From positions 1-64,000 of the forward strand of contig JACOSY010000035.1 of NCBI GenBank assembly GCA_016178595.1: a DNA stretch of 64,000 bases, given 5' to 3'. A program made the position numbers and the translations under genes. Source of the stretch: Ignavibacteria bacterium (GTDB lineage Bacteria; Bacteroidota; Ignavibacteria; UBA10030; SZUA-254). The notes beneath the pieces are model-generated. The model saw only the letters and a program-made list of their open reading frames with translations. It had not been told where the DNA came from and ran no database searches. Shown here in pieces: positions 17,124 to 19,634 of the stretch; within the stretch, counting starts at the first letter, position 1; every line of letters begins with the position of its first letter.

Positions 17124-17177
17124 TTTCTATTCTTCCGGTTTAGCAAGTTGTTGAAAAACTCTGATTGTCTGATATTG

Positions 17178-17233
17178 CCACAACCTTCAGGTCATGGAAA
17201 ACGAGAGTGAAGAAATGCGACGGGCTTTAGCCC
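17178..17233 (+). repeat. composite REP unit 1 (long plus short palindrome), degenerate
   Basis: The long palindrome (17178-17197) has a tc loop and two mismatches compared with the perfect copy at 18966. After 24 bases comes the short palindrome gggctttagccc (17222-17233). Orientation is long then short. Confidence 0.7.
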
Positions 17234-17260
17234 TTGCATTTGGATGGCTTTCGATGGAAT

Positions 17261-17317
17261 GGGTTGAAACCCATCACGATTTTTCTATGATTGCTCTCCA
17301 CGAGCTGAAGCTCGTGG
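17261..17317 (-). repeat. composite REP unit 2, inverted relative to unit 1
   Basis: The short palindrome gggttgaaaccc (17261-17272) is followed after 25 bases by the perfect long palindrome ccacgagctgaagctcgtgg (17298-17317). With unit 1 it forms an inverted pair of about 140 bases, like a BIME lacking a transposase gene. Confidence 0.78.
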
Positions 17318-17407
17318 CTATGAATTCCCTTGTTCAACAGCCTGTTAGATGTAAGTCTCTTGCGCATTGTATTCGGATCCAGTGCACGCCTAGAGAGCGG
17401 CATGAGA

Positions 17408-17435
17408 TTGATTCTCTCATGAAAATGCGTATATT
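17408..17435 (+). promoter_or_regulatory. possible promoter of the secreted YCF48-repeat gene
   Basis: TTGATT (17408-17413) and TATATT (17430-17435) have a 16-base spacer. This would start transcription about 55 bases before ATG 17497 and supports that start over the longer reading frame. Confidence 0.4.
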
Positions 17436-17496
17436 TCCTCACACAATCTTGATAAGTGTGTCGAGAGGCCTCATCATACATATTCGTGAGAGAGAA

Positions 17497-18792
17497 ATGG
17501 ACAGCGACTGCCGCAGCAATGTTCCTACCCGGGTGTCTTTCTTCATAAGCGTTCTCCTCTTGATCGTACTCCTGACGCCCCGTGCCCATGCGCAAGTATC
17601 CAATACAAAGAGTGAGCTGCCGTGGTTTCGAGAAAGTGCTGCCGATGTTGGAACAACGCTCTGGTCGGTCGATGCGCTGAACGTCGATACGATGATGGCG
17701 GTCGGCGATGCGGGGATGGCAAGGAAGACGACCAATGGCGGCGTACTCTGGATCAGTCGACTGCAAGCCGATAGCTCAAACAATATTCTCCTCGGCGTTT
17801 CGTATGCCGATAGCCTCGTTGCGACTGCCGTTGGATATAATGGCACGATTGTTCGCACGACCGACGGCGGTCGTCATTGGCTCAATCAAATGACGAGGCC
17901 GGGATTAACCTTGTTCGGAGTTTCCTTTACCGATGCGAACAGCGGTACGGTCGTGGGCGACAGCGGAACGATCCTCCGTACGTCGGACGGCGGGGCAACG
18001 TGGGTGAAACAAGACTCGGCTCAACACTATATGCTGCTTGGAGTTTCGTTTGCAGATGCTCTTCATGGCATTGCCGTCGGTGGAGGAGGAAAGATCATGC
18101 GGACGACCGATGGCGGAGTGCACTGGACGACCGAACCGAGCCCGGTGAGCAATTTTCTCTACGGTGTATCGTATCCCGACTCCACCACTGCAACTGCCGT
18201 CGGTACGATGGGAAAGATCCTTCGCACGACAGACGGTGGATCGACGTGGATAGAGCAATCCAGCGGCACGACAAGTTATTTTTACGGAGTATCTTTCAGC
18301 GGGGCAAACGACGGTATGGCTGTTGGCGATGGCGGAAAAATTGTGTACACGACCGATGGTGGAACATTGTGGATCAACAAGCCGAGTGGAACGGCAAGGA
18401 GTCTTTATGGCATAGCGTTCTTTGATACGAGCCACTGGGTGGCGGTCGGCGGCTCAGGAACGGTTGTGCGGATGGGAGATTCCTCGGTCATCGTTACGGG
18501 TTTGCCGGATGCGAAGGAAGCTGTTCCGGCAACATTCATGCTGTACCAGAATTATCCGAATCCGTTTAATCCGATAACGAATTTTAGATTTTCGATTTCG
18601 GATATTGGAATGGTACGATTGACCGTGTATGATCTCCTGGGGAGGGAAGTAGCCACGATTGTGCGCGAAGAACTTTTGCCGGGATTGTATACGCGGAGGT
18701 GGGATGCCTCAACTATTCCGAGCGGCGTCTACTTCTACCGCTTACAATCGGATCGCTTCACGGACACCAGGAAAATGCTGCTCGTCAGGTAA
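17497..18792 (+). CDS. secreted YCF48/beta-propeller repeat protein with type IX sorting tail
   Basis: The 431-residue protein has a Sec signal peptide (hydrophobic core FFISVLLLIVLL, ending near AHA). About seven repeats of roughly 43 residues follow, each with AVGDxGxIxRTTDGGxxW, the pattern of the photosystem II assembly factor YCF48 and related propellers. The C-terminal 85 residues form a type IX secretion tail starting YQNYPNPFNP and ending in a VYFYRL-type strand. It is thus predicted to be exported to the surface; the function is unknown. The open frame extends back to 17194, but that part covers REP palindromes and has no protein-like character, so ATG 17497 is preferred. An AT-rich dispersed motif lies in the tail at 18579-18609. 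Confidence 0.85.
   Translation: MDSDCRSNVPTRVSFFISVLLLIVLLTPRAHAQVSNTKSELPWFRESAADVGTTLWSVDALNVDTMMAVGDAGMARKTTNGGVLWISRLQADSSNNILLGVSYADSLVATAVGYNGTIVRTTDGGRHWLNQMTRPGLTLFGVSFTDANSGTVVGDSGTILRTSDGGATWVKQDSAQHYMLLGVSFADALHGIAVGGGGKIMRTTDGGVHWTTEPSPVSNFLYGVSYPDSTTATAVGTMGKILRTTDGGSTWIEQSSGTTSYFYGVSFSGANDGMAVGDGGKIVYTTDGGTLWINKPSGTARSLYGIAFFDTSHWVAVGGSGTVVRMGDSSVIVTGLPDAKEAVPATFMLYQNYPNPFNPITNFRFSISDIGMVRLTVYDLLGREVATIVREELLPGLYTRRWDASTIPSGVYFYRLQSDRFTDTRKMLLVR
18579..18609 (+). repeat. AT-rich dispersed motif, copy B (inside the sorting tail)
   Basis: The words gattttagatttt and cgatttcgga encode NFRFSISDIG between the PNPFNP motif and the following VRLTVYDLLGREVA strand, where related tails usually have a few other residues. 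It resembles copy A (3243-3271) and copy C (48666-48700) on the complementary strand. Confidence 0.45.
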
Positions 18793-18878
18793 TGCGACAT
18801 CTCATGGTGTTTGGTGGGGAAGAGCATTCACGGCGAATAATTCACCGCAGATTAATGGATGAAGGAATCCCCGGTAGC

Positions 18879-18897
18879 CGCACCCTTTATGGGTGCG
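18879..18897 (+). repeat. palindrome cgcaccc-tttat-gggtgcg
   Basis: A perfect seven-base-pair stem with a five-base loop lies 86 bases after the secreted-repeat gene. It has no T-run. It sits just upstream of the REP unit flanking the RAYT gene and is another palindrome type of this patch. Confidence 0.55.
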
Positions 18898-18965
18898 TTG
18901 GGGTTGATTCCAAGCGGAGGCAAGGTTTGAAGAGGTTGGCGGCATAATGGAAATTTCCAATTTAG

Positions 18966-19020
18966 CCACGACCTTCAGGTCGTGGCATTGAGTGTAAAAA
19001 AACAGAGCGGGTTTTAACCC
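18966..19020 (+). repeat. composite REP unit 3, left flank of the RAYT gene
   Basis: A perfect long palindrome, ccacgaccttcaggtcgtgg (18966-18985, tc loop), is followed after 23 bases by gggttttaaccc (19009-19020, tt loop). It ends 11 bases before the transposase ATG. Confidence 0.82.
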
Positions 19021-19031
19021 ATTCATAAGCC

Positions 19032-19463
19032 ATGCCATACACGAAGATATGGATTCATCTGATCTGGTCAACGAAGAATCGAGAGCCGATGCTGCAGAAG
19101 GATTTTCGCAGCAAGCTCTTCGATCATATTCGAGAAAATGTCAAAGGAAAAGGAATTCATCTTGACACCATGAACGGATACCTTGACCATGTCCACACTC
19201 TGATTCGACTGAAGCCGGATCAATCCGTTGCCAGAGTTGCGCAGCTTCTCAAAGGTGAATCGTCGCACTGGGTCAACGATCAAAAACTAACCGGTTTTAA
19301 ATTTGAGTGGCAAGATGAGTATATTGCGTTGTCTGTAAGTGAATCTCAACTTGACAAGGTGCGGGAATACATCAAGAATCAGGAAGAACATCATCGGAAA
19401 AAGACTTTTGCTGAGGAGTATGAACAGTTCATGAAGAAGTATGGATTTAATGAAGAGGGTTAA
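19032..19463 (+). CDS. REP-associated tyrosine transposase (RAYT, Y1 type)
   Basis: The 143-residue enzyme belongs to the IS200/IS605-like Y1 superfamily, which cuts and rejoins single-stranded DNA at palindromes. The metal-binding HUH motif is H53-V-H55 in DHVHTLI, and the candidate catalytic tyrosine is Y113 in REYIKNQEEHH, the usual RAYT context. Length is normal and the frame is intact. The gene is flanked by inverted composite REP units; its stop codon lies inside the right-hand short palindrome. It probably mobilises or maintains these repeats in trans. Confidence 0.93.
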   Translation: MPYTKIWIHLIWSTKNREPMLQKDFRSKLFDHIRENVKGKGIHLDTMNGYLDHVHTLIRLKPDQSVARVAQLLKGESSHWVNDQKLTGFKFEWQDEYIALSVSESQLDKVREYIKNQEEHHRKKTFAEEYEQFMKKYGFNEEG

Positions 19464-19514
19464 AACCCTTGTAGTGATTTGGGATCTTTTTTATCCGCGA
19501 GCTGAAGCTCGTGG
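19457..19514 (-). repeat. composite REP unit 4, right flank of the RAYT gene
   Basis: The short palindrome gggttaaaaccc (19457-19468, aa loop) is followed after 26 bases by ccgcgagctgaagctcgtgg (19495-19514, ga loop, one G-T pair). Read on the other strand it has the same order and loop bases as unit 3. The RAYT stop codon (19461-19463) lies within it. Confidence 0.82.
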
Positions 19515-19582
19515 CAAAAGCTAAAGCTCGCTGCAAGAACAGAAACTCGTGACAATGCCTTATCTTGATAAAATGAGAATTG

Positions 19583-19634
19583 CCACCATCTTCAGATGGT
19601 GGATCACGATATTTCCTTAATTGGACTTTAGTCC
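19583..19634 (+). repeat. composite REP unit 5
   Basis: The long palindrome ccaccatcttcagatggtgg (19583-19602, tc loop) is followed after 20 bases by ggactttagtcc (19623-19634, tt loop). The stem bases differ from the other units but are paired, so the change is compensatory. Confidence 0.75.

Follow-up and report, generated by a model that had tools for sequence, protein, structure and literature searches.

What are the paired palindromes that surround a small transposase gene on a contig of an Ignavibacteria bacterium, and what would the enzyme encoded between them do with them? The stretch of DNA analysed here, referred to as the window, is the first 64,000 nucleotides of the forward strand of contig JACOSY010000035.1 (GenBank assembly GCA_016178595.1). 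Each unit in it consists of a long palindrome (LP), a spacer and a short palindrome (sp). The arrangement is probably best explained as a REPtron-like element, presumably mobile, that is built on an IS200-type (HuH-Y1 subclass 1.2) transposase and has composite REP units as its ends. This reading draws on the anatomy of the element, its conservation and covariation, the polarity of its loops, its gene-less inverted pairs and its co-occurrence with the transposase, all of which were observed.

Composite units and the transposase gene in the window

The initial annotation of the window described five units of 52-58 bp, each with a 20-base palindrome, a spacer and a 12-base palindrome, and all five are found in their places with this plan. 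U1 (17178-17233, + strand; A-type) and U2 (17261-17317, - strand; B-type) are the left and right units of an inverted pair that contains no gene, with covariance model scores of 73.5 and 74 bits, respectively. U3 (18966-19020, + strand; 72 bits) and U4 (19457-19514, - strand; 69 bits) enclose the transposase gene in inverted orientation, as had been described. In U3, the composite unit on the left of the transposase element, an A-type LP occupies positions 18966-18985 and the sp 19009-19020, while in U4, the composite unit on its right, the sp lies at 19457-19468 and a B-type LP at 19495-19514. Just beyond this right LP, the sequence shows incomplete and degenerate copies of it in tandem (19515-19556, - strand), including a copy with 73% identity (D2, 19532-19553). 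U5 (19583-19634, + strand; 65 bits) stands alone, and no convergent partner was found for it. In unit orientation all five LPs are 20-mers with the centre CT-TC-AG, and the sp is a 12-mer with the two-base centre TT, or TC in U2. Two LP positions are unpaired in U1 and one in U4. The loops of U3 and U4 are reverse complements of each other, as the initial annotation pointed out, but this is a mere consequence of the inverted orientation of the two units. Both palindromes of U5 carry compensated stem changes, so that pairing is kept with different bases, again as described. In a folding computation, U3 as single-stranded DNA adopts exactly two hairpins (z -4.6); the folding of U4 and of the whole pair is less clean. 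No Rfam family matches the units, and a query of open-licence papers with the palindrome sequences returned nothing relevant, with the match in Nunvar 2010 being a REP of another family. The longest open reading frame call for a neighboring YCF48/BNR-like protein with a secretion tail (17194-18792) begins inside the gene-less inverted pair, and the start more likely lies near 17512.

The gene between U3 and U4, tnpA (19032-19463, + strand), encodes a 143-residue HuH-Y1 transposase (Pfam PF01797, Y1_Tnp, 98 bits), and its stop codon falls in the sp of U4, in agreement with the initial annotation. Residues H53, H55, Y113 and Q117 are conserved in an alignment of 27 sequences, the catalytic residues are intact, and the nearest solved structures among its relatives in the PDB are the TnpA proteins of ISDra2 and IS608. 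The name RAYT, which the gene had been given, does not fit the protein. It fails the NCBIfam model REP_Tyr_transpos (NF047646; 23.3 bits, cut-off 80) and passes the IS200/IS605 model (NF033573; 72.4 bits, cut-off 55). Its motifs DHVH, WQ (as FEWQ) and YIKNQEEHH form the signature of TnpA_Y1 subclass 1.2, which is defined by DH[IV]H, WQ and Y---Q--HH in proteins of ~148 residues (Quentin et al. 2018, PMC6006769), and the Y---NP motif of class-2 RAYTs is absent. Judged by these motifs rather than by the HMMs of Quentin et al., tnpA is assigned to subclass 1.2, with which it also shares length, low copy number and a Bacteroidetes-rich distribution. The layout that characterizes RAYTs, a gene between two inverted REPs with dispersed copies, is nonetheless present, though the RAYT protein motif is not.

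The genome encodes two more copies of the transposase, with 54% and 41% identity to it; their flanking sequences are different, and they are therefore not recent products of transposition. A plasmid search returned distant IS200 relatives only. Among the Y1 genes elsewhere in the genome, a second subclass 1.2 transposase (L001, contig C8, 1402-1857) has its own two-palindrome flank at 1880-1990, with palindromes GCACCACAATTAATTGTGGTGC with AAACCGTTTCAACGGTTT / AACCGATTTATCGGTT; a search for dispersed copies of this unit returned, apart from the unit itself, a single weak match. A third (L003, contig C42, 1862-2716) adjoins about six 111-bp repeats in tandem, and an open reading frame of 449 residues runs through this array in frame with the transposase. 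A distant Y1 transposase (L006, contig C7, 1357-2028) has paired palindromes of different sequence on both sides (GGACAGGTCTCCTGACCTGTCC / GGACAGAACAGGAGTTCTGTCC).

Gene-less inverted pairs and the repeats around them

A covariance model built from seven units and run on the bacterium's own 3.1-Mb genome found 43 full-length units with E values down to 9e-21, and the five-unit pattern is therefore not a product of chance. These units comprise 20 gene-less convergent pairs, one of which is U1 with U2, together with the pair that flanks the gene and the solitary U5. Dispersal of units as inverted pairs, which is the mark of REPINs and BIMEs, thus applies to 42 of the 43. The spacing between LP and sp is 20-27 bp, with a mode of 25, so that the fixed spacing proposed for the window holds genome-wide, and the measurable gene-less pairs are 117-141 bp long from one outer LP end to the other. 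Every pair that could be typed, 16 of them gene-less plus the gene-flanking one, has one A-type and one B-type end. The A end has the LP GACCTTYAGGTC and mostly the sp GGGCTTYAGCCC; the B end has the LP GAGCTTYAGCTC and the sp GGGTTTYAACCC. Because nearly all units are paired, and each typed pair joins an A to a B, the dispersed object is a polar inverted pair and not a single unit.

What dispersed these pairs is a separate question, since many are enclosed by a second set of repeats. Around the gene-less pair of the window, the outer terminal inverted repeat (TIR) CAAGTTGTTGAAAAA lies at 17144-17158 (+ strand) with TTAG just before it (17140-17143), and its counterpart (- strand), which reads TTGTTCAACAGCCTG on the + strand, lies at 17330-17344 and is followed by TTAG at 17345-17348, identical to the left 4-mer. 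Of the 20 gene-less pairs, 12, this one included, are bracketed by the outer TIR CAGGCTGTTGAAAAA, a YTAR sequence adjoins nearly every end, and 23 of the 26 matches to the TIR in the genome are located at gene-less pairs. The pairs could therefore be MITEs of a TIR-recognising (DDE-type) transposase, with the REP pair as passive cargo and the Y1 enzyme little involved in dispersal, a reading whose probability we place just short of even. It would accommodate a similar element that has no REP units (L171), the outer inverted repeats of other sequence around units in some copies from genomes G009 (AACTGATGTTACG, perfect) and G033 (AGCTATCTCAAAAAC), and the finding that the Y1 transposase can be missing from unit-rich genomes. 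These other repeats are clear only for L181 (G033) and L186 (G009), and in G030 outer inverted repeats do not rise clearly above shuffles. Identical 4-mers, the candidate target-site duplications of the outer TIR, flank 6 of the 12 TIR-bearing pairs, a proportion that barely exceeds what the YTAR preference alone would produce. Several pairs, such as L081, L083, L087, L089 and L090, lack the TIR, as does the transposase-bearing element itself, and passive carriage leaves unexplained why the same units surround the transposase in many genera without this TIR. A search of 98 genomes for short TIR elements lacking the REP pair, which could represent empty sites, found none. The outer TIRs around most pairs weaken the claim that the Y1 enzyme alone made the present copy number. 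They suggest that REP pairs were carried by DDE-type MITEs, and we infer that in this genome most of the present copies spread as cargo of the outer TIR element and not by the Y1 enzyme alone.

Units and transposase nevertheless occur together across genomes, which speaks for the REPtron-like element. As the initial annotation had proposed, the units are associated with this transposase clade. Within the order (98 genomes), 29 of the 36 genomes that have a near-clade transposase contain units, vs 16 of the 62 that lack one (p=2e-7). The association was replicated in 61 further genomes of the phylum, where a near-clade transposase is present in 20 of 31 unit-rich vs 2 of 30 unit-less genomes (p=2e-6), with some of the latter taken from the genomes reported without a match and not individually listed. 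Two observations had been named as ones that would speak against the proposal. Palindromes at random spacing were not found, as the spacing is fixed, but units in genomes that lack the clade were, both in the 16 of 62 genomes above and in G131, which has 79 units. In G131, and in G147 with 22 units on one contig, no transposase was detected, so units persist or spread in its absence. In G030 (35 units) and G033 (38 units) the only transposase copies are distant or broken. Such genomes, together with the near lack of dispersed copies of the unit beside the C8 paralogue, count against the REPtron-like reading.

Conservation of the two-hairpin unit in relatives

The comparison set comprised 92 relatives found in the 98 genomes of the order, plus 80 loci taken from named assemblies that include Ignavibacteria, KSB1, Cloacimonadota, Acidobacteriota, Flavobacterium, Algoriphagus and Cyclobacterium; the sample covers subclass 1.2 outside its cyanobacterial members. 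When 49 near-clade loci were scanned without regard to the loop, 36 of 48 had a perfect stem of 8 bp or longer 50-100 bp upstream of the gene, with 0-5 such stems per 50-bp bin beyond 100 bp. The loop was TTCA, TTTA or TTAA in 34 of these 36 upstream stems, and complementary loops were seen downstream. A stricter score, which required both LP and sp with TTNA loops, was applied to 118 dereplicated loci from several phyla. The two-hairpin unit was detected upstream in 58, downstream in inverted orientation in 66 and on either side in 89, and these counts do not match the published entry for subclass 1.2, which reads 'REP: no' and describes IS200 terminal structures as generally absent (Quentin et al. 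2018, PMC6006769). Both sides passed at once in only 35 of the 118 loci, a number for which imperfect stems are partly to blame. Shuffled sequences gave 0 of 590 per side and distant flanks 2 of 224, and loops of the wrong polarity occurred in 0 and 1 of 118. More distant members of the subclass have an LP and sp at similar spacing with other loops in 14 of 40 upstream regions (shuffles 0/240, distant flanks 0/75). In some genomes the pairs are arranged differently: L179 (G030:C45, 1-330) contains inverted pairs head to tail with shared flanks, resembling a BIME array, and in L185-L189 (G009) and L182-L184 (G033) many pairs are divergent, with LP inside and sp outside, the opposite of the window's genome.

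The stems and loops of these units are constrained in different ways. At a given LP stem position, as many as all four Watson-Crick pair types occur, with 91-100% pairing, and because pairing was part of the selection of units, the informative features are the diversity of the pairs and the constancy of the loops rather than the level of pairing. The stems vary freely among relatives yet stay paired, which bears out the selection on structure that the initial annotation had read from U5. Most loops of either hairpin read TTYA or TTAA. A four-base foot, NTWR, immediately precedes the LP on its 5' side, in the place that GTAG occupies in known REPs. Its T, at position -11, is found in 89% of upstream and 94% of downstream units though it was not selected for. 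ATTG and ATAG are the commonest upstream feet, with GTAG occasional, and the gene-less copies in the bacterium's own genome share the NTWR foot. The stop codon coincides exactly with the sp loop in 39 of 71 downstream units. Unit sequence tracks how closely the proteins are related (Mantel p=0.001), and ends are more alike within a locus (0.81) than between loci (0.61). No conserved sequence that could be a cleavage site was found in the spacer or in the 58 nt outside the foot, which counts against the REPtron-like reading.

The same data bear on three other explanations of the palindromes. Elements of the IS608 type have ends that are recognized on one strand. A conventional IS200/IS605 insertion sequence whose hairpins lie subterminally, with the gene-less copies as its deletion derivatives, would agree with the NCBIfam family that the protein enters while staying below the RAYT cut-off, with the closest solved structures and with hairpins near both ends, but is unlikely. 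The hairpins are inverted and not direct, and in nearly all loci the loops at one end run opposite to those at the other, as in the REP/BIME layout. The divergence of the other two genome copies contrasts with the 99% mean identity of true IS200 copies in subclass 1.1 (Table 1, PMC6006769). Recent near-identical gene-bearing copies, a trait of IS200/IS605 elements, are thus absent, and gene-less units greatly outnumber transposase genes; we rejected this explanation on the inverted polarity, the divergent copies and the excess of units. IS200-type genes do carry regulatory hairpins, and the palindromes lie near the start and stop codons of tnpA, so they could be RNA elements of the gene (terminators or ribosome-site hairpins) rather than recombination sites. 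This is less probable still, and was rejected, because full two-hairpin units occur in the 20 gene-less pairs, loop polarity tracks the unit and not transcription, and no Rfam family matches. Least probable, at only a slight chance, are symmetric double-stranded binding sites of a dimeric protein: the stems are mostly perfect palindromes, but the TTYA centre is non-palindromic with a fixed direction, and a free stem with a fixed loop is the reverse of what such a site would show, so this explanation was rejected as well.

Predicted recognition of the units and relation to known systems

For the REPtron-like element, a mechanism can be proposed. Each unit consists of an NTWR 5' foot, a long hairpin whose loop is TTYA, an A-rich spacer of about 20-25 nt and a short hairpin with a like loop, and the ends face each other at fixed distances from the gene, A upstream and B downstream, with the downstream short hairpin often providing the tnpA stop codon. 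TnpA_REP and the IS608 and ISDra2 enzymes contact loop bases and a 5' tetranucleotide, and their tyrosine nicks single strands (PMC8266576). Because these enzymes behave in this way, the most likely reading by analogy is that the enzyme would recognize each unit as a folded single strand through the TTYA loops of its hairpins and the NTWR foot. Y113 would then nick beside the unit using the DHVH metal site, and the enzyme may process inverted pairs as non-autonomous elements. We can only guess that the second hairpin might be a second docking site for a dimeric enzyme or a check that the unit is complete.

The nearest parallels are the REPtrons of RAYT/TnpA_REP with GTAG REPs (Nunvar et al. 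2010, PMC2817692; Corneloup et al. 2021, PMC8266576), which likewise have an HuH-Y1 gene between inverted hairpins, a foot of four bases at the 5' side, gene-less copies that are dispersed, and units that change together with the protein. In contrast to these, the element described here belongs to class 1 and not class 2, has no NP motif after the tyrosine, uses an NTWR foot in place of GTRG, and has two hairpins per unit with TTYA-type loops fixed on both; its copies number in the tens, not hundreds. REPINs and BIMEs also disperse as inverted REP pairs, and the two unit types per pair recall the Y and Z REPs of E. coli, but the pairs here have four hairpins within their 117-141 bp or so and are often enclosed by an outer TIR. 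The statement in the initial annotation that known REP units have one palindrome was too strong: earlier work (PMC3733652) describes REPs combined with stem-loops unrelated to them, a few tyrosine transposases whose TIRs are 'double palindromic', and REP dimers in which the spacer contains two stem-loops. These TIRtrons and CGTC-3 dimers resemble the present units in having double palindromes by tyrosine transposase genes or two-stem-loop spacers. They differ in being a handful of cases or, for CGTC, in having no link to a transposase, whereas the plan described here is subclass-wide, with most members in our sample flanked by two-hairpin units, a point on which they also differ from the published account of subclass 1.2.

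On balance, we narrowly favor the view that a whole IS200-type subclass, spread over several phyla and recorded as lacking REPs, forms REPtrons with a REP of its own that has two hairpins, TTYA loops and an NTWR foot. If true, the partnership of REP and transposase would exist in Y1 class 1 as well as class 2, with a code made of loops and a second hairpin. Subclass 1.2 has been published as IS200-like without mobile ends or REPs, so that its substrate had been unknown. The flanking units would supply a predicted cognate substrate for each of many enzymes, in which the stems vary and the loops and foot are constant, and the choice of DNA by Y1 enzymes would become directly testable through unit swaps between loci. 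The findings also suggest that an IS200-type transposase was domesticated into a REPtron in class 1 too, and that unrelated TIR elements can pick up and multiply REP pairs.
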